From a virus, in the IMG/VR virus record IMGVR_UViG_3300032057_000003, positions 1-30,997 of that record: 30,997 nucleotides of DNA; one strand, written 5' to 3'. Positions 2,738 through 30,772 of this stretch are shown piece by piece. Within the stretch, counting starts at the first letter, position 1. Each line of letters begins with the position of its first letter. The notes beneath the pieces were generated by a model. It ran no database searches, was not told the DNA's origin, and worked only from the letters and a program-made list of their open reading frames with translations. Made by a program: the position numbers and the translations under genes.

Positions 2738-4339
2738 ATGCAGCTTCGAGATTACCAACAAAGAGCACTTGATCAGCTTTACGACTGGTTTACACGCTAC
2801 GAAGGCAACCCTTGCATCGTCCTGCCGACGGGCGCAGGCAAAAGCCACGTCGTTGCCGCATTGTGCAAAGACGCCCTGACACAATGGCCTGAGACCAGAA
2901 TCCTGATGCTCACCCACGCCAAAGAGTTGATAGAGCAGAACTTAGAGAAGCTTCTGCTTCACTGGCCAAACGCGCCAGTCGGCGTGTACAGCGCCAGCGT
3001 AGGGCGAAAACAACTCGGTTACCCCATCACCTATGCCGGAATCCAGTCAATCTGGCGACGCGCCGAAGACGTGGGACACGTTGATCTCGTTATCATTGAC
3101 GAGGCGCACCTGGTGTCGCACAAAGATACCGGAATGTACAGGACGTTCCTTGACGCATTGACGCGAATCAACCCCCGCCTTCGCGTCGTCGGACTGACCG
3201 CCACGCCGTTCCGGTTGGGGCACGGGATGATTACCGATCCACCGGCAATCTTTTCCAAGCCCCTTATCAAGCCAGCGTCTCTGACAGAGCTTATCGCCAA
3301 AGGGTATCTTGCGCCATTACAAAGTAAGGCCACGGACACAACTTACGACGTGTCTAACGTCGCCAAACGCAATGGCGATTACGTTGAAAGCGAACTCCAG
3401 GCGGCGGTTGACAAAGACGAGTTGAACCGGTCGGTTGTGGACGAAATTATCGCCCGCGCCGGCAACCGCCGCTCGTGGCTTGTGTTCTGCGCTGGCGTCG
3501 AACACGCCGAACATATCGCTGAAGAACTCCGACAGCGCGGCATTGAAGCCGCGTGCATCACCGGCGAGACCCCAAAAACAGAGCGCGAACGACTGATTGG
3601 CGCGTTCAAGGCAGGCAGAATTCGAGCACTGACCAACGCCAACGTACTGACAACCGGGTTCGACCACCCGGACGTTGACCTGATAGCAATGCTTCGCCCG
3701 ACCGAATCGCCAGGGCTGTACGTCCAGATGGCAGGACGCGGATTGCGCCCGAAATCCCACACCGACCACTGTCTAGTGCTGGATTTTGCCGGCGTCGTTG
3801 AGCGGCATGGTCCAATCACAGCCGTCGAGCCGCCAGAAAAGAACGGCAACGGAAGCGGACGCGCGCCAGTCAAGAAGTGCCCACAGTGCCGGGAAATCGT
3901 CCACGCCAAAGTCAAGGAATGCCCAGCGTGCGGCTACGAATTTCCACCAGCCGAGCGCACGGTCAACCTATGGTTACGTGACGCCGATATTATGGGCGGC
4001 GCCGTAGAAACTCACGCCATCACGCGCTGGCATTGGATGCCGCACTACAGTCCCTACAGCGGGCGCTGGCTGCTACTGTGCGAGTATCACACTACGTCTC
4101 CAAGACTGGTTATCACTCAGTATCTCACGCTCTTTTATCCGGGCTTCCCCGGACGCCGTGCCCAAGCCGACCTCGAAGCCCTGCTGGGTGAACCACTTCC
4201 CCAGCTTCAGGGAGACGAACAGGAAAAGCTCCAAAAGCTTACAAACATTCTCAATCAAAAGCCTGCACCGTCTGAAATTTCTTTCATTAGAGACGGCAAA
4301 TTCTTTCGGATTATTTCCGCTAAATGGAGGCTGTTATGA
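2738..4339 (+). CDS. SF2 DEAH-box helicase with zinc ribbon
   Basis: A 533-residue DEAD/DEAH helicase. Motifs in order: Q-motif-like LRDYQQRA at residue 3, Walker A LPTGAGKS near 28-36, DEAH near residue 121 (VIIDEAH), motif III-like GLTATPFR, and motif VI QMAGRGLR near 331. A zinc ribbon, CPQC and CPACG, follows at about 381-400. The C-terminal 130 residues include a Trp/Tyr-rich stretch and are unassigned. This resembles the RecQ/UvsW/RadD-like helicases phages use for branch migration or replication restart. It begins 7 bp after the nuclease, so the two probably act together as a helicase-nuclease pair. The exact substrate is unknown. Confidence 0.88.
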   Translation: MQLRDYQQRALDQLYDWFTRYEGNPCIVLPTGAGKSHVVAALCKDALTQWPETRILMLTHAKELIEQNLEKLLLHWPNAPVGVYSASVGRKQLGYPITYAGIQSIWRRAEDVGHVDLVIIDEAHLVSHKDTGMYRTFLDALTRINPRLRVVGLTATPFRLGHGMITDPPAIFSKPLIKPASLTELIAKGYLAPLQSKATDTTYDVSNVAKRNGDYVESELQAAVDKDELNRSVVDEIIARAGNRRSWLVFCAGVEHAEHIAEELRQRGIEAACITGETPKTERERLIGAFKAGRIRALTNANVLTTGFDHPDVDLIAMLRPTESPGLYVQMAGRGLRPKSHTDHCLVLDFAGVVERHGPITAVEPPEKNGNGSGRAPVKKCPQCREIVHAKVKECPACGYEFPPAERTVNLWLRDADIMGGAVETHAITRWHWMPHYSPYSGRWLLLCEYHTTSPRLVITQYLTLFYPGFPGRRAQADLEALLGEPLPQLQGDEQEKLQKLTNILNQKPAPSEISFIRDGKFFRIISAKWRLL

Positions 4340-5170: not shown

Positions 5171-5256
5171 CTAAAACCGCTTATAGCGCATTTTGAGAGA
5201 AGCGCTCGTAGGGATATACGTGCCACGGGGTTCCGGCGGCTTATAAGCGGTTTTAG
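5171..5256. repeat. 15-bp inverted repeat in the non-coding region
   Basis: CTAAAACCGCTTATA (5171-5185) pairs perfectly with its reverse complement at 5242-5256, 56 bp apart. It could form a second cruciform or be a pair of protein-binding sites in the putative origin. Confidence 0.65.
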
Positions 5257-5856
5257 CGGTTTCTCTGGGGAACCGGTTCGCCCTGGCGGACGCCGGTTCG
5301 CGGTTCGGTCGAACGAGACTGGAAAGACTCCCCGGCGGCGCAAAAACTTCTCTCCTAGCGCTTTCAGGATTGTGGGACTGTGCAGTTGTGCCCCTGGCGT
5401 TTTCTGAGTGCTTTGATAGTTAAAACTCCCCGCTGTAGGCGACTGCTAGAAGCCGTAATAACTTTGGATTTTTCTCGAGACTAAACCTGTTTTTCTTTTG
5501 CTTTTTTTGCGCAATAAAACTTTTTTTTCTTTGGCTTTCTTTTGGATTTATGTCTCAAATTCTTTTAGGCAAAAGCTTGATAAGTGCGTGGGTCTAAAAA
5601 ATAACCCGGCACAGCGGAAAACTGTAACCGGGCGTGAAGACGCGAGCTTCTCGGTGCCTGACATGCTGCGGCCCGCCCAACGTCCCGTCCGGTGTTGGGA
5701 TGTTGGGGGGTGCATTGCTTCGTATTCTGCAATAAGCTTGACCCGAAAAGCGAGCCGAAACTCCGTGCCGCCGCCGGGAAAGCTGGAAAACTCGAAGGCT
5801 TTTTGCGGTCGAGTGTTCCACGGCTGTTCCACGGCGCGAAAGGTTCGTACATATAA

Positions 5857-5904
5857 ACTCGCACTCTGCTTCCCTTCGATACTCGCACTCTGCTTCCGTT
5901 CGAT
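5857..5904. repeat. Two tandem 24-bp repeats upstream of the mini-array promoter
   Basis: The 24-bp unit beginning ACTCGCACTCTGCTTCC occurs at 5857-5880 and again, abutting, at 5881-5904 with a single C/G difference. The second copy ends 2 bp before the -35 hexamer at 5907. This placement suggests operator or activator sites for the array promoter. Confidence 0.7.
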
Positions 5905-5906
5905 AA

Positions 5907-5935
5907 TTGCGAACAAGCGTGAACTGAGGTATGAT
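5907..5935 (+). promoter_or_regulatory. Promoter of the CRISPR-like mini-array
   Basis: TTGCGA (5907-5912), 17 bp, then TATGAT (5930-5935). The first repeat begins 5 bp later at 5941, so transcription would start at or within the first few bases of repeat 1. There is therefore no room for a conventional leader RNA. Confidence 0.65.
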
Positions 5936-5940
5936 GTCCG

Positions 5941-6136
5941 GCAATAAAATCTTTGATGCCGAAAGGCGTTGATCACGGTGGAAGCCCCGTGGGTGTCGTA
6001 GCCCAACTTATGGGTGCAAAAATCTTTGATGCCGAAAGGCGTTGATCACCGCTCCATCCGTTGCAGGTTCAGCACTGTCTCGCGTGCAAAAATCTTTGAT
6101 GCCGAAAGGCGTTGATCACTCAAAGGCGTTGATTAC
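5941..6136 (+). CRISPR. Mini-CRISPR array: 3 repeats, 2 spacers, no cas genes
   Basis: A 36-bp repeat occurs at 5941-5976, 6014-6049 and 6084-6119. Copies 2 and 3 are identical; copy 1 differs only in its first five bases. The spacers are unrelated to each other: 37 bp (5977-6013) and 34 bp (6050-6083). A truncated copy of the repeat's last 16 bases, with two changes, follows at 6121-6136. In + strand RNA each repeat folds as GAUGCC-GAAA-GGCGUU, a stem with a GNRA loop whose G-U pairs exist only in this orientation. This agrees with the upstream promoter. No cas gene is in the window, so host Cas proteins would be needed. Confidence 0.8.
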
Positions 6137-6209
6137 ATTACGAAACCGCTTCTGATTCAGGGTTGTGCCTCCTAAGGGCTCACGCACCCAGCATTGCCAA
6201 GAACCCTTC

Positions 6210-6235
6210 TTGACAGCTCGCTTTGACAACTCGCT
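6210..6235 (+). repeat. Tandem 13-bp repeat starting with TTGACA
   Basis: TTGACAGCTCGCT (6210-6222) is followed directly by TTGACAACTCGCT (6223-6235). Each copy begins with a perfect -35-like hexamer, but no good -10 is found at 16-18 bp from either. It may be a regulator site rather than a promoter. Confidence 0.5.
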
Positions 6236-6274
6236 GGCGTTTCTAGCCTAGACGAAAAGACGCCGGGACGCTCT

Positions 6275-6309
6275 TTCCGACGTTGCTAAAAAAAAAGTCG
6301 GAACTTTTT
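6275..6309 (+). terminator. Possible terminator, overlapping the next promoter's upstream element
   Basis: TTCCGAC (6275-6281) pairs with GTCGGAA (6297-6303), then CTTTTT. It could end the mini-array transcript. The right arm and A-tract are also the conserved upstream part of the promoter cassette for the gene at 6387, so the function is ambiguous. Confidence 0.4.
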
Positions 6310-6378
6310 GCTTGACACGCCGTTTAGGAAGGTGTAAGTTTGAACCAAATCACGGGCGGCGGCCCTAAAACGCAGGAG
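6288..6378 (+). promoter_or_regulatory. Cassette promoter and hairpin leader, copy a
   Basis: An A-tract and GTCGGAACTTT lead into TTGACA (6312-6317), 17 bp, and TAAGTT (6335-6340). The leader then carries the hairpin GGGC-GGCG-GCCC (6354-6365) and TAAAACGCAGGAG, the Shine-Dalgarno for ATG 6387. Three further copies of this cassette precede leftward genes at 29933, 30301 and 30676. Confidence 0.85.
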
Positions 6379-6386
6379 CAGTCGCA

Positions 6387-6926
6387 ATGAGCGAAATCTT
6401 TTTCCGAGGTACCCAAGCTTTCACTTTTACCCCTTATGCCGAAGAAGACGTGCACGCTTTTGAGGCGTATCGTACATTTTGGCATCTGAACGAGCTCCAG
6501 GATGCTGGCGAGCCGGCGTTTACCTATGCGCAGGCCGTTGTCGTCTCAAGAGTAGCGCGTTGGGTGTTCCAAGGTGCGTCCTACGCTTCTGTTATTGTTC
6601 ACCCGGACGACATAGAGTGGATTCTTTGTTTTCCTGTGGTTCGGACCTGTGGTTCGGAGTACTACTCTCTGCAAACAGAGGAAATTCACCCCGATGGAGA
6701 GGATGTGTTCTTCTTCTTCTCTGGCTCCACCCCAACTGGGACGCCCATTCGGGCTGTCCCTTACTTAGACGACTTGAAATTCCTGTCTCCGCGCGACGGC
6801 GTTAAGTTAGTGCTTGTCCGCGCCAAAGATTGGGAATGGGATGAGGGGCGGAACACCGTCCTGATTCAGCCACAGGACGTGGCTGAAATAGAAATCGTGC
6901 TTGACTCAGAGGTGCGCGTGTTCTAA
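6387..6926 (+). CDS. Orphan protein of unknown function with its own promoter
   Basis: A 179-residue acidic protein, not recognised. It is rich in aromatic residues (EAYRTFWHLNELQ; DVFFFFSGS) and seems soluble, with no signal peptide or membrane segment. The start is fixed by GCAGGAG eight bases before the ATG. It has its own promoter cassette and terminator, unlike the operons on each side, so it behaves as an independent transcription unit. The shared cassette suggests co-expression with the small leftward genes at the right end of the window, perhaps early host-takeover or defence functions; this is inference only. Confidence 0.75.
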   Translation: MSEIFFRGTQAFTFTPYAEEDVHAFEAYRTFWHLNELQDAGEPAFTYAQAVVVSRVARWVFQGASYASVIVHPDDIEWILCFPVVRTCGSEYYSLQTEEIHPDGEDVFFFFSGSTPTGTPIRAVPYLDDLKFLSPRDGVKLVLVRAKDWEWDEGRNTVLIQPQDVAEIEIVLDSEVRVF

Positions 6927-6947
6927 CGCGCGTCTTCACCAACCCGC

Positions 6948-6981
6948 GCGCCGTTCCCTTCATTGGGGCGGCGCTTTTTTT
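6948..6981 (+). terminator. Terminator of the orphan gene
   Basis: GCGCCG (6948-6953) pairs with CGGCGC (6969-6974), extended inside by CCC/GGG, followed by seven T residues. It lies 21 bp after the stop codon at 6926. Confidence 0.85.
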
Positions 6982-6991
6982 GTGTCTTGTC

Positions 6992-7020
6992 TTGTTTGGC
7001 ACGGTACCTGGTGGTATCCT
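6992..7020 (+). promoter_or_regulatory. Weak candidate promoter for the late operon
   Basis: TTGTTT (6992-6997), 17 bp, TATCCT (7015-7020). Both hexamers are poor matches, as expected for a promoter needing an activator, but the site may be chance. It is the only candidate between the terminator and the small terminase gene. Confidence 0.3.
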
Positions 7021-7047
7021 CTCTGACAGTTCGACAGGAGGGTGTCA

Positions 7048-7569
7048 ATGGGTGTACCGAAGCTAACCCCTGAACAGTGGGCCAACATTAGAATCGAGCG
7101 CGAAGCTGGCGCGTCATTGGGCTACCTCTCCGCTAAGTACGGCGTCAGCAAAACGACTATTGCGCAACGCGCCGAGCGCGAAGGCTGGAGCGACGGGTCG
7201 GACGCCGCTGAAACCGTCCGCCGCAAGGCGCAGGAAAAGCTCTACGAGTTGCCCGATGCCGCCCAAAAGCGTGCCGCCGCAATTGAAGCCGCCGCTGACC
7301 GCGCTGCCGAAATCTTACGCCGCCACCAAGAAGAAACTAACGCCGTCCGTGAACGTCTCTACGCCGGACTCAAAGCGCATCGCGAAGCTAAAACAAGAGA
7401 GCAAAAGCTGCTGGCGTTTGAAGACTTGAAGGCGGCAAAAATTGCCAGCGAGACGCTGATGAACCTGCAAAAAATCGAGCGCATTAACTGGGGGCTCGAT
7501 ACCTATGGCAGTGCCAAGACCGAAATTGTTATCGAGCGGAGCTACGGCGTTTATGGCGCTGCGAATTGA
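7048..7569 (+). CDS. Terminase small subunit-like protein
   Basis: A 173-residue protein with an N-terminal helix-turn-helix (LTPEQWANIRIEREAG, then LSAKYGVSKTTIAQRAEREGW). It continues into a long Ala/Glu/Arg-rich coiled coil (about residues 60-150). DNA-binding plus oligomerisation helices match phage small terminases, which recognise the packaging site and load the large subunit encoded downstream. AGGAGG at 7036-7041 sets ATG 7048 as the start; an in-frame GTG at 7042 abuts the Shine-Dalgarno and is unlikely. The two genes between it and the large terminase are unusual but seen in some phages. Confidence 0.75.
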   Translation: MGVPKLTPEQWANIRIEREAGASLGYLSAKYGVSKTTIAQRAEREGWSDGSDAAETVRRKAQEKLYELPDAAQKRAAAIEAAADRAAEILRRHQEETNAVRERLYAGLKAHREAKTREQKLLAFEDLKAAKIASETLMNLQKIERINWGLDTYGSAKTEIVIERSYGVYGAAN

Positions 7570-8104
7570 GTACCTGCCCGTCGAAAAACTCCGCCCCTAC
7601 GAACGTAACGCGCGCACGCACAGTGACGCGCAAATTGACGCAATCGCCGAAAGTATCCGCCAGTTTGGCTTCAATAGCCCAATCCTAATTGACGATAACA
7701 ACGGCGTTATCGCCGGTCACGCGCGCCTCGCCGCCGCGCGCAAACTTGAACTCGATACCGTCCCGTGTGTCCGCCTGTCGCACCTGTCTGACGCGCAACG
7801 CCGCGCCTATATCCTTGCCGACAACCGCTTGGCGGAAATGGCTTCGTGGGACGAGGAGCTTCTCAAGTCCGAGCTACTCGAATTATCGGCTCTGGAGACC
7901 GAGCTAGACCTGTCTTTTCTCGACTTCGATCTCGACAAGCTGCTTCACGAAGACGAAGATGGTCACGAACGTCAAAAAACAAAAGAAGCCAAGCTGCTTC
8001 ATTTTTTCGAGGTCAGTGTCATCTGCAAGGATGAACAGGAACAGAAAGCCGTCTACGACCACCTGACAGAGTTGGGATACCAATGCCGCGTTTTGTCCAT
8101 ATAG
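7553..8104 (+). CDS. ParB/Srx N-terminal domain protein
   Basis: A 183-residue protein starting with the ParB N-terminal domain: VEKLRPYERNARTHSDAQIDAIAESIRQFGFNSPILID, then the GVIAGHARLAAARKL motif that in ParB proteins forms the nucleotide-binding pocket. There is no DNA methylase domain, to which phage copies are often fused. The C-terminal 80 residues are acidic (LDFDLDKLLHEDEDGHE). ATG 7553 is chosen because the domain begins directly after it; an upstream in-frame start at 7505 would overlap the terminase gene further. Phage ParB-like proteins near terminases have no settled role; DNA segregation, regulation or nuclease activity are possible. Confidence 0.8.
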   Translation: MALRIEYLPVEKLRPYERNARTHSDAQIDAIAESIRQFGFNSPILIDDNNGVIAGHARLAAARKLELDTVPCVRLSHLSDAQRRAYILADNRLAEMASWDEELLKSELLELSALETELDLSFLDFDLDKLLHEDEDGHERQKTKEAKLLHFFEVSVICKDEQEQKAVYDHLTELGYQCRVLSI

Positions 8105-9171
8105 TCGAGCGCGATTACACTCCGACGTTTCGTGCCGAAAAAATCGTCGGAATGTTCGATGTGCCGCCAGCACGAAAACTAACCCGCCGGTGGGAAGTCA
8201 ACCTGCCGATTGAGGAGATTGACTGGCAGATCGGGCTGATAGTTGGCCCGTCCGGCTCTGGCAAGACAACGATTGCCCGCCGCGCGTTTGCTGATTCCGG
8301 CGCGACTTTTTTCGAGGGGCACCACTGGACAGACCGCCCGGTTGTTGACGATTTCAGCGAAACCCTGTCCGTCCAGCAAATTGTCGAAGCCCTCAGCCAC
8401 GTCGGGTTTTCAAGTCCGCCTGCCTGGTTACTGCCTTATCACTGCCTTAGCAACGGGCAGCGTTTTCGCGCTGATCTGGCGCGCGCAATTCTCGAAACCG
8501 CACACACACTGGTGTTCGACGAGTTTACTTCCGTCGTTGACCGCACGGTTGCAAAAATTAGCGCCGCCGCCGTTCAGAAGTTTGTCCGGCGTACCAATAA
8601 GAAATTCGTTGCTGTCACGTGCCATTACGACGTGGCGGAATGGCTTGAACCGGATTGGGTATATGACACTGCCGACGGCTCGTTCCGTCGGCAGCGTCTT
8701 CGACGCCCCGAAATCCAACTTGATGTCTTTGAAGCCGGAGCGGAAATATGGCCAGTATTTCGGCCGCATCACTATCTGAGTGCGGAAATCAATAAAAGCG
8801 CCAAATTCTTTGTTGCAGTTTTTGAAGACCACATGGTGGCAATGACCGCGATACTTATTTTCCCACACCCTACGGTGAAAAATTGCTACCGCGAACATCG
8901 AACAGTCGTTTTGCCGGACTTTCAAGGCGTAGGAATAGGAAATCGTCTTTCGGAATTCGTCGGGGACTGGCTTTTAAGTCGAGGGAAGCGGTTTATCAGC
9001 ACAACCAGTCATCCGGCAATGATCGCTCACCGGTCACGTTCCTCTAAGTGGATTTTGAAAAGAATTGGGCGTGCATCTCCTCTTGGGAGAGGCTCTACTT
9101 ATGGCGGTTATTCCGCCTGCAATCGTCTCACCGCTTCCTTTGAATACCTTGGATGCCCAAAGTCACCCTGA
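8083..9171 (+). CDS. ABC-type ATPase fused to GNAT acetyltransferase (COG2401-like)
   Basis: A 362-residue two-domain protein. The ATPase half has Walker A GPSGSGKTT at 55-63, an ABC signature variant LSNGQ near 122-126, Walker B TLVFDEFTSVVD near 142-153, and a switch His in AVTCHYDV. Residues from about 225 to 330 fit a GNAT acetyltransferase, including the acetyl-CoA motif VVLPDFQGVGIGNRLSEF. There are no membrane segments, so it is not a transporter. The fusion matches COG2401, known from prophages and phages, of unknown function. It overlaps the ParB gene by 22 bp and the terminase by 19 bp, implying coordinated translation with packaging genes. Confidence 0.85.
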   Translation: MPRFVHIVERDYTPTFRAEKIVGMFDVPPARKLTRRWEVNLPIEEIDWQIGLIVGPSGSGKTTIARRAFADSGATFFEGHHWTDRPVVDDFSETLSVQQIVEALSHVGFSSPPAWLLPYHCLSNGQRFRADLARAILETAHTLVFDEFTSVVDRTVAKISAAAVQKFVRRTNKKFVAVTCHYDVAEWLEPDWVYDTADGSFRRQRLRRPEIQLDVFEAGAEIWPVFRPHHYLSAEINKSAKFFVAVFEDHMVAMTAILIFPHPTVKNCYREHRTVVLPDFQGVGIGNRLSEFVGDWLLSRGKRFISTTSHPAMIAHRSRSSKWILKRIGRASPLGRGSTYGGYSACNRLTASFEYLGCPKSP

Positions 9172-27010: not shown

Positions 27011-27508
27011 GTGCAGATAAACGAAGCCGGGCTGAAGCTAATCAAAAAATTCGAGGGCTTGCGCTTACGCGCCTACCGTTGCTCGGCTGGCGTCTGGACA
27101 ATCGGCTATGGCCACACCAAGACGGCGAAACGGGGACAGGTTATTACCGAAGCCGAAGCTGACCGATTATTACGTGAAGACCTGCGTATTTTTGAAAAAG
27201 GCGTGTTGGAAGCGCTTGGTAACGCGCCGACGACCGAAAACCAATTCAGTGCAATGGTTAGTCTAGCGTTCAATATCGGTCTCGGTGCGTTTCGTCGGTC
27301 AAAAGTCTTGGCTTTTCACAAAGCGGGCAAGACAGCGGAAGCCGCCCGTGCTTTCGCCAACTGGCGTAAGGCAGGCGGCAAGGTTTTGCCGGGGCTGGTG
27401 CGTCGGCGCGCGGCGGAAGCGAAGTTGTACCTGACGCCAGACAGTGAAAAAGCCCAGCCCGGTGGAAGCCAGGCTGGGCAACGTGCGAATAAGTTAGAGA
27501 ACGGTTAG
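27011..27508 (+). CDS. Endolysin, GH24 lysozyme (muramidase)
   Basis: A 165-residue phage lysozyme starting at GTG 27011. The catalytic motif E15-x8-C24-x5-T30 lies in KFEGLRLRAYRCSAGVWTIGYGHT (written as KFEG...CSAGVWT); Cys replaces the more common Asp, a known GH24 variant. It cleaves the glycan strands of peptidoglycan to lyse the cell. There is no signal peptide or SAR segment, so it needs a holin to leave the cytoplasm. The last 20 codons contain a terminator hairpin for the opposing gene, and the stop overlaps that gene's stop by 4 bp. Confidence 0.9.
   Translation: MQINEAGLKLIKKFEGLRLRAYRCSAGVWTIGYGHTKTAKRGQVITEAEADRLLREDLRIFEKGVLEALGNAPTTENQFSAMVSLAFNIGLGAFRRSKVLAFHKAGKTAEAARAFANWRKAGGKVLPGLVRRRAAEAKLYLTPDSEKAQPGGSQAGQRANKLENG
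27447..27479 (-). terminator. Terminator of the leftward block, inside the endolysin gene
   Basis: Read leftward, GCCCAGCC (27479-27472), a 12-base loop, GGCTGGGC (27459-27452) and five T residues (27451-27447). It stops the transcript from the clamp gene, which ends at 27505, and lies wholly within the endolysin coding sequence. Confidence 0.8.
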
Positions 27509-28290
27509 GAGTCAACCCTCGGCAGAGGTGGAATAGAGGAACGCCAGCAAGGCATTACTAGCTGGCGGATGGTAAAGGGTGATTGTACAACCGGGGACAA
27601 TTCTATGGCGTTGGAAATGAGACGCCTTTCATAAGGAGGAACAATCCGAATTTGCACATCCCCCGTCGGAAGTGCTTGGGCGGCATCAAGCAAATAATTG
27701 CAGTCAGCGATGCCGTCCATTGAGTAGTCAGAACGCGCTTCGATTCTGACCGGCGAAATGGTATTTGCATTTTCGGCTGCCACGGCTATAAAGCCGGGGC
27801 GAACCCAAAAGAAAACACTCCGGTTTTTGCGCGTGGTTTGTTTTTTGGCGCTCTGCAGCGCCTCAATGAACTGTTTTCTCTCGCAGTGCAGAGTGATCGA
27901 ACCCTCTATCGGCGGAAAAACAGCAAAATAGTTTGGATAGCGTGCCTGAATCACAGGCACAGAGAAACCTGCCTTTTCGTGCTGGATGACCGCCTCGGTA
28001 TCGTTGGCGGCAATCTTGATGACGGTGCCTAAAGCACGGGGGAGTTTCAGTTCGGAAAGCTCTCTAGCGCTTAGGATGGCAGTCATCGGCTCCCGGCAAT
28101 CGTACCCGTCGTCTGTCTCGAACAAAGCCAGGCGATAGCCGTCTGTGGCAACGACGCGAAACTTTGTTGGGGAAGCGTCCAAAAGGACGCCAGAAAACGC
28201 CGGGCGACGCGGGTCGAAGTCCCGTGACGCGGCAAATGCGGTGGATTTCAGCGCACGGTGAAAAATATCTGCTTTGACAGTTATTTGCAT
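27505..28290 (-). CDS. DnaN-like sliding clamp lacking the N-terminal domain
   Basis: A 261-residue protein that aligns by pattern with domains 2 and 3 of the DNA polymerase III beta clamp. Domain 2 shows PAFSGVLLDASPTKFRVVATDGYRLAL (written in part: FSGVLL...VATDGYRLAL). Domain 3 starts near YPNYFAVFPP and runs through QFIEALQSAKKQ, CNYLLDAAQAL and IRQLVMP. Domain 1 (about 125 residues) is absent, and GGAGGTGAG before ATG 28290 supports this as the true start. Host clamps are near 370 residues. The usual VMPMRL end is replaced by VMPCWRSS plus ten residues. It probably tethers a polymerase to phage DNA. Confidence 0.85.
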   Translation of the reverse strand: MQITVKADIFHRALKSTAFAASRDFDPRRPAFSGVLLDASPTKFRVVATDGYRLALFETDDGYDCREPMTAILSARELSELKLPRALGTVIKIAANDTEAVIQHEKAGFSVPVIQARYPNYFAVFPPIEGSITLHCERKQFIEALQSAKKQTTRKNRSVFFWVRPGFIAVAAENANTISPVRIEARSDYSMDGIADCNYLLDAAQALPTGDVQIRIVPPYERRLISNAIELSPVVQSPFTIRQLVMPCWRSSIPPLPRVDS

Positions 28291-29633: not shown

Positions 29634-29933
29634 CTAGACCAGCTTGATTCTTACCGGCTGGCCGTCTTCGGTTACCCACACCCGCGGGCAACCGGGGATT
29701 GCCTTCACAATTGCGTCTGTCACGCCGTATTGGGCGACGAACCGGCGGACTGCGTTACGTGACGCTGCGTAGCGGTCGCCGTATTCACGGGCGCGTCCCT
29801 GCAACTCCGCGCCGGACAGAACGCCAGGAACGTGCCCACGGCACAGAACGTGAAGCTGATAGCTACCAAACCGGGCAGGAACTTCAGAGGCCGGAATTTC
29901 AATCGTTTTCAGCGTTGTCGTCATCGTCGTCAT
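29634..29933 (-). CDS. Small protein under cassette promoter b
   Basis: A 99-residue protein, Thr-rich at the start (MTTMTTTLKTIEI), then SYQLHVLCRGHVPGVLSGAEL and AVRRFVAQYGVTDAIVKAIPG. No family recognised; the C-terminal part could bind nucleic acid but this is not shown. ATG 29933 is seven bases after GCAGGAG of the cassette leader; an ATG at 29938 is out of frame. The genes to the left probably share its promoter. Confidence 0.7.
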   Translation of the reverse strand: MTTMTTTLKTIEIPASEVPARFGSYQLHVLCRGHVPGVLSGAELQGRAREYGDRYAASRNAVRRFVAQYGVTDAIVKAIPGCPRVWVTEDGQPVRIKLV

Positions 29934-29949
29934 TGCATTGCTCCTGCGT

Positions 29950-30032
29950 TTTAGGCCCGCCGGCCATTGAGTTGATTTGAACTTACACCTTCATGAACGT
30001 TTTGTCAAGGGAAAAGTTCCGGTTTTTTTCTT
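29950..30032 (-). promoter_or_regulatory. Cassette promoter and hairpin leader, copy b
   Basis: Read leftward: A-tract, CCGGAACTTTTCCC, TTGACA (30008-30003), 17 bp, TAAGTT (29985-29980), hairpin GGCC-GGCG-GGCC (29965-29954), then TAAAACGCAGGAG. It drives the gene starting at 29933. Confidence 0.87.
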
Positions 30033-30043
30033 TTTTTTTCTAA

Positions 30044-30074
30044 GGCGCGTCCGGCGGAACATACCGGACGCGCC
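30044..30074 (-). repeat. Intercistronic GGCGC hairpin, copy 3
   Basis: A perfect 11-bp inverted repeat, GGCGCGTCCGG (30044-30054) and CCGGACGCGCC (30064-30074). It lies 8 bp past the stop of the gene at 30083 and is followed leftward by TTAG and the A-tract of cassette b. With no T run it is not a standard terminator. Confidence 0.7.
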
Positions 30075-30082
30075 GTGACAGG

Positions 30083-30301
30083 TTATTCAGTGCGAGATTT
30101 CAGGTCGTCTATGAGTTCCGAGATACGTTGGCGATCCATCCCGGATAGCCAGTCCACGACCCGCCCTGACCGCTCGCGCATCTTGGCGCCGAGCGCCTTA
30201 TGTTCGGACGACATCCAGTCTGTACGAAACCCAGCCCGGCGCATCAAGGCGAGGGCATAAGAAACCTGCTTCTCGGTCGCCATCGGGATATTGTTTCTCA
30301 T
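30083..30301 (-). CDS. Small protein under cassette promoter c
   Basis: A 72-residue helical protein: MATEKQVSYALALMRRAGFRTDWMSSEHKALG (partly shown as EKQVSYALALMRRAGF), then RVVDWLSGMDRQRISELIDDLK. The pattern of a TxKQxxYAxxLxxxAGF helix followed by DWLSxM resembles small phage proteins of unknown role. ATG 30301 is eight bases after the cassette Shine-Dalgarno; an internal ATG seven codons later lacks one. Confidence 0.7.
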   Translation of the reverse strand: MRNNIPMATEKQVSYALALMRRAGFRTDWMSSEHKALGAKMRERSGRVVDWLSGMDRQRISELIDDLKSRTE

Positions 30302-30318
30302 TGCACTGTCTCCTGCGT

Positions 30319-30400
30319 TTTAGGCCCGCCGGCCGTTGTTTGTTTTGTTTCTACACTTCTCTATACGCTTTGTCAAGGGGAAAGTTCCGATTTTTTTTTT
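30319..30400 (-). promoter_or_regulatory. Cassette promoter and hairpin leader, copy c
   Basis: Read leftward: A10, TCGGAACTTTCCCC, TTGACA (30376-30371), 17 bp, TAGAAA (30353-30348), hairpin GGCC-GGCG-GGCC (30334-30323), TAAAACGCAGGAG. The -10 is the most divergent of the four copies. Confidence 0.85.
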
Positions 30401-30420
30401 TCGGAACTTTCCCCTTGACA
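30371..30420. repeat. 20-bp perfect inverted repeat containing the -35 of cassette c
   Basis: 30371-30390 (TGTCAAGGGGAAAGTTCCGA) is the exact reverse complement of 30401-30420, separated by ten T residues. One arm is the -35 and upstream element of cassette c; the other lies 4 bp after the stop of the gene at 30425. The right arm's TTGACA faces rightward but has no -10. Confidence 0.85.
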
Positions 30421-30424
30421 GGGG

Positions 30425-30676
30425 CTACGGACGGGCTGCTCGTACCTTGACAACCCGGAGGTTGTCCCGGCTGAGGAACTCCCACCCGTATTTCTCGAAG
30501 TGGCGCTGGTTGAATGGATGCTCCAAGTTTGCCTCAACCACTACTAGGTAGCGCGCTCCACGACGCCACAGAATTTCTCCGGCGCGTAGGGCACGCTCCT
30601 GGGTGGCGTAAAACTGAACGTACTCAGGAAGATACCGCGTGTACTCCCGGACTGGAACATAAGCCCGTACCTTCAT
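30425..30676 (-). CDS. Small protein under cassette promoter d
   Basis: An 83-residue basic protein: MKVRAYVPVREYTRYLPEYV, a helix (YATQERALRAGEILWRRGA), a strand (RYLVVVEANLEH) and NLRVVKVRAARP. The alternating pattern suggests a small alpha/beta fold. Not recognised. ATG 30676 follows the cassette Shine-Dalgarno by seven bases, and an inverted repeat follows the stop by 4 bp. Confidence 0.7.
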   Translation of the reverse strand: MKVRAYVPVREYTRYLPEYVQFYATQERALRAGEILWRRGARYLVVVEANLEHPFNQRHFEKYGWEFLSRDNLRVVKVRAARP

Positions 30677-30692
30677 TGCTTGTCTCCTGCGT

Positions 30693-30772
30693 TTTAGGCC
30701 CGCCGGCCATTGATTGATTCAACCTTACACCTTCATGAACGTTCTGTCAAGAAAAAAGTTTCAAGTTTTTTT
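30693..30772 (-). promoter_or_regulatory. Cassette promoter and hairpin leader, copy d
   Basis: Read leftward: A-tract, CTTGAAACTTTTTTC, TTGACA (30750-30745), 17 bp, TAAGGT (30727-30722), hairpin GGCC-GGCG-GGCC (30708-30697), TAAAACGCAGGAG. The spacer is almost identical to that of copy b (CGTTCATGAAGGTG shared). Confidence 0.87.

Follow-up and report, generated by a model that had tools for sequence, protein, structure and literature searches.

The 30,997-bp virus record analysed here (the window; possibly incomplete) carries a mini-CRISPR array that, with a probability of about 0.75, serves to exclude competitors using the Cas proteins of the host. The original prediction had left the element as either an anti-competitor array or an RNA anti-CRISPR. 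This pair of readings was supported, and the evidence tips the balance to the anti-competitor branch, because the spacers turn over between sister phages and one of them nearly matches a PAM-flanked site in a phage small terminase gene (terS).

A mini-array behind a candidate promoter

The anatomy of the array proved to be as predicted, with three 36-bp repeats (start-to-start distances of 73 and 70), spacers of 37 and 34 bp and a partial fourth repeat, each where it had been placed:

5847..6200, no strand: optional insert, approximate extent, boundaries read by eye
5857..5904, + strand: 24-bp tandem duplication directly 5′ of the promoter, found in array carriers only
5907..5935, + strand: sigma-70-like promoter, TTGCGA-17-TATGAT
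5941..5976, + strand: repeat 1, 5′ end altered, last 31 nt as in the other repeats, 89% identical to them, same hairpin
5977..6013, + strand: spacer 1 (37 nt)
6014..6049, + strand: repeat 2, consensus GTGCAAAAATCTTTGATGCCGAAAGGCGTTGATCAC
6050..6083, + strand: spacer 2 (34 nt)
6084..6119, + strand: repeat 3, identical to repeat 2
6120..6136, + strand: partial fourth repeat (3′ half), within which 6122-6136 is a 15-nt partial copy matching at 14/15 positions

Comparison of the repeats confirmed that repeat 1 departs from the others at its 5′ end only and that repeats 2 and 3 are identical. Only as + strand RNA does the repeat form its hairpin, an 8-bp stem capped by a GAAA loop (−8.8 versus −4.3 kcal/mol), in agreement with the predicted strand specificity, and an Rfam search gave no match. 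The predicted promoter does end 5 bp before repeat 1, and the expected start site, about 7 nt past the −10 element, coincides with the altered 5′ end of this repeat. It is the sole sigma-70-like match in 1.1 kb, yet shuffled sequences give 0.5 such matches by chance, making the promoter plausible but statistically weak.

A promoter set directly against repeat 1, as in viral solitary repeat units (PMC10651486), together with the altered 5′ end of that repeat, would fit an RNA anti-CRISPR, whose repeat RNAs soak up host Cas6 and Cas7 and jam host immunity while the spacers are incidental. Like Racr and other solitary repeat units (PMC10651486), the array is an intergenic phage repeat right behind a promoter; unlike them, it has three full repeats inside 180 bp, separated by real, changing spacers of crRNA size, and SRUFinder leaves out arrays of such form (PMC10651486).

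The array lies in a tailed-phage genome

Proteins encoded in the window identify it as a phage and include small and large terminase subunits, portal, major head, tail tube, tape measure and tail assembly proteins, and a lysozyme. No cas operon was found among the window proteins scanned. The prediction of an array without cas genes thus held in that these proteins included no other cas-like gene, but it needs to be qualified by a Cas4-domain exonuclease:

1883-2731, + strand: Cas4-domain exonuclease (PHROG 1990, E = 2.8e-76; NCBIfam cas4 below cut-off)
177-857: Sak4-like annealase
1273-1788: SSB-like protein

This exonuclease is an ordinary phage recombination-type nuclease, and it is not specific to the array, since an array-less relative (L038/L044) also has it. 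It adjoins the Sak4-like annealase, the SSB-like protein and a RadD-like helicase in a phage recombination and replication module.

The repeat belongs to a family found beside type I-B cas genes

We observed the 22-nt core of the repeat in 16 contigs from GTDB species genomes of Desulfobacterota, cyanobacteria and planctomycetes, several of which carry arrays of 11-41 units. The recurrence of this core in bacterial arrays that reach about 40 units places the phage array far beyond chance. Cas genes within reach of the core-bearing arrays are of the I-MYXAN type, which we take to belong to subtype I-B, and the arrays read in the same direction. In one contig (L007), cas3-cas8(Cmx1)-cas7-cas5 immediately precede the array on its own strand, and in five others (L011, L013, L014, L015, L016) a MYXAN-type cas1, mostly as a cas4-cas1 fusion, lies near the array. 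The phage array has the orientation seen in L007, L011 and L015, and its repeat has the stem and 3′ handle of type I-B (MYXAN). A cellular array with a related repeat, which the original prediction had called for, was therefore found, adjoining I-B (I-MYXAN) cas genes.

The repeat of the Leptospira interrogans I-B system, CTGAATATAACTTTGATGCCGTTAGGCGTTGAGCAC (PMC9372919), offers a close comparison. These arrays share with the phage array a 36-nt repeat, the same core stem, a nearly identical 3′ end and a unit of about 71 nt, and their transcripts are cleaved by Cas6 into 71-nt crRNAs (PMC9372919). Unlike the phage array they are cellular and cas-linked, and their repeat has GAGCAC at the 3′ end where the phage repeat has GATCAC.

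Similar repeats were also present on Gloeothece and Nostoc plasmids. No cas-linked host array with the repeat in its full 36 nt turned up in repeat searches that included the GTDB species genomes. No host emerged from two genome samples, of 386 and 392, drawn from the phyla to which two genomes with repeat matches belong (a cyanobacterium and a planctomycete), and the large terminase compared with named phages was too distant in similarity to name a host. The complete 36-nt repeat recurred elsewhere only in contig L023, where two identical copies surround one spacer (2922-3036) directly behind an IscB gene and an IS200/605-like end; this contig also encodes TnpB.

Spacers turn over among sister phages

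An array occupies the same site in three further phage contigs (L020, the same as L033; L021; and L022, the same as L025). All repeats, including the altered repeat 1, the promoter, the 24-bp duplication and the partial fourth repeat are identical in all four carriers, and the spacers are almost the sole differences within a near-identical block. L020 shares spacer 1 with the window apart from 2 SNPs and has a different spacer 2; L021 has three spacers, all different from those of the window; and L022 has two of the L021 spacers, one with a SNP. Outside the spacers, carriers were 99-100% identical from about 5,750 to 7,300 (about 1.5 kb), compared with typically 85-98% in adjacent DNA, and the window and L025 were 100% identical over 6201-7200. 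Relative to the flanks, shared spacers were enriched in SNPs (2/37 versus 0/368; Fisher P = 0.008), as they were when pooled (3/74 versus 0/736, P = 0.0007), although the pooled contrast is slightly overstated because one downstream SNP in L021 is left out. At least three relatives (L043, L038, L026) are without the insert, their flanks being joined via a short hairpin, and L043 is 99% identical up to the insert breakpoint.

These empty sites, together with the differing spacers in a near-identical block, indicate that the array is an optional module, that the block spread recently and that change is faster in the spacers than in the DNA around them. Since spacer sequence and number differ between sister phages, the contrary case named alongside the original prediction, namely fixed spacers throughout the related phages, is contradicted.

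The same comparison bears on two other explanations. A partial fourth repeat, an altered terminal repeat and the lack of a recognised host leader would fit a passenger: a fragment of a host array that has decayed or was captured by accident and now serves no function. We find this improbable, given that repeats 2 and 3 are perfect and that none of the repeats differs among the four phages, while the spacers are replaced within a block that is otherwise near-identical; a dead array would be expected to erode evenly. A chimera that joined phage and host CRISPR DNA during assembly was also put second, and we regard it as very improbable: although every carrier is a metagenome contig and consensus noise could explain the spacer SNPs, the same junctions occur in four contigs from different metagenome records and empty alleles exist.

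Several observations concern the neighbourhood of the array. A 179-aa gene behind it (6387-6926, + strand) is 100% identical in carriers and 48-58% identical in array-less relatives, some of which (L043, L024) have it in two tandem copies; it swept together with the array. The same intergenic region of the array-less L024 contains a small helix-turn-helix-like ORF (346-767), which suggests that the region is a hot spot for optional inserts. Non-coding DNA at 5250-5600 of the window shows just about 60% similarity from one sister phage to another, although these phages are otherwise close.

Recombination through the repeats is the probable route of spacer change

When Cas1-Cas2 inserts a spacer in the ordinary way, the repeat on the leader side is copied. 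In the phage arrays, the promoter-side repeat 1 has a private 5′ end in all four phages that is absent from every downstream repeat, and phage pairs have the promoter-proximal spacer in common while spacers further in differ. Because the 5′ end of repeat 1 is never copied and the promoter-proximal spacer is shared, recombination through the 31-36-nt repeats is favoured, and spacer turnover probably proceeds by this route and not by ordinary insertion at the leader end. Recombination has been proposed as the route of spacer change in other phage mini-arrays (PMC6858448, PMC7099407). The genes for the Sak4-like annealase, the SSB-like protein and the Cas4-domain exonuclease lie about 3-6 kb from the array, and their products could favour repeat-mediated recombination. 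More tentatively, and with rather less than even confidence, we propose that the array acts as a cassette of spacers. Short-homology recombination driven by the phage and running through the repeats, in place of insertion by Cas1-Cas2, would swap these spacers, so that a phage population could trade targeting information with host or sister arrays and spread the cassette by a sweep.

Spacer 2 probably points to the small terminase gene of a rival phage

Spacer 2 matched best to the terS gene of the phage itself, in antisense orientation, at 27/34 positions:

7042..7569, + strand: terminase small subunit, terS (PHROG 1206, E = 3.5e-9)
7448-7481, − strand: spacer-2-like site in terS, mismatches at spacer positions 6, 9, 10, 11, 23, 26 and 27

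This score was reached by 1 of 3000 shuffled spacers and by 0 of 3000 unrelated 34-mers, and the terS match alone stands at about 2e-3 after allowing for seven spacers. Read in frame, spacer 2 gives ETVLNLQRME where terS gives ETLMNLQKIE. An ATG lies 5′ of the terS site and fits the PAM that has been predicted for type I-B of Leptospira (PMC9372919), although this PAM is from another genus and was compared after the terS match had been seen. The 27/34 match and the adjoining ATG therefore suggest that spacer 2 derives from, and targets, the terS of a diverged rival relative. The seven mismatches at the phage's own site are as expected under avoidance of self-targeting, and such a self-mismatch pattern has been reported for viral mini-arrays (PMC6858448).

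The spacer search proposed with the original prediction gave no exact protospacer in phage or metagenome sequences: codon-degenerate searches of IMG/VR with both window spacers and the third spacer of L021, and blastn of six spacers against a phage collection, returned only the arrays themselves or chance-level matches. The other spacers had no above-chance match in the phage family. A terS motif search recovered known relatives only, all at no more than 27/34 to spacer 2. Since the terS of a diverged relative matching spacer 2 was not among them, the target is a strong lead rather than proof.

A model of competitor exclusion

We infer transcription, processing, host identity and interference from these features, as follows. 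The array's own promoter would drive transcription of the + strand. If the host has a type I-B (I-MYXAN) system, its Cas6 would cleave this RNA at the hairpins of the repeats, yielding crRNAs of about 70-73 nt. Assuming the usual 8-nt handle, each crRNA would start with the 3′ end of the repeat, UUGAUCAC, and continue into the spacer. Host Cascade and Cas3, loaded with phage crRNAs, would then destroy co-infecting or superinfecting rival phages, with the spacer 2 crRNA most probably directing Cascade to the terS of a diverged relative.

The replacement of spacers while repeats stay identical, and the resemblance of one spacer to a phage gene beside a PAM, also argue against the RNA anti-CRISPR introduced above. 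With its three repeats and changing spacers, we put the solitary-repeat (Racr) form second and consider an RNA anti-CRISPR unlikely as the main function, while a side-effect of this kind is possible and compatible with competitor exclusion.

Comparison with known viral mini-arrays

By the features that sequence can test, the array belongs with known viral mini-arrays, and it may work as they do. Like those of the Saccharolobus portogloboviruses SPV1 and SPV2 (Medvedeva 2019, PMC6858448), it has few spacers (1-2, and three in the sister L021), no cas genes and an intergenic location, and sister viruses carry different spacers at the same place. SPV1 and SPV2 target relatives with self-mismatch (PMC6858448), to which we liken the near-match of spacer 2 to terS. 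Unlike them, the present array lies in a tailed phage, has a bacterial repeat of type I-B/MYXAN-like form, and comes with no demonstrated host-like leader and no exact reciprocal targets found. The phage mini-arrays of Faure 2019, as other papers describe them (PMC6858448, PMC7099407, PMC11656645), are likewise cas-less with a dissimilar or absent leader, have spacers against related phages and are proposed to gain spacers by recombination; relative to that description, the present array shows turnover directly, in four sister phages and empty alleles.

Phage mini-arrays have so far been known mostly as single snapshots. Four sister phages and empty sites make the spacer turnover of phage-carried arrays measurable in a natural population, and spacer gain by leaderless phage arrays becomes directly testable.

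Other features of the window

One gene of the window, which has a ParB-like gene on one side and the large terminase gene on the other, encodes a fusion of an ABC-type ATPase and a GNAT acetyltransferase domain (8083-9171, + strand; PHROG 11143, unknown function). The phage also encodes a DNA polymerase III beta-clamp-like protein (27505-28290, − strand). At 29900-30720 an intergenic motif recurs between leftward genes, appearing as SCVLGPPA or CVLGPPA in three spurious ORFs, and its copies are possibly shared regulatory sites.
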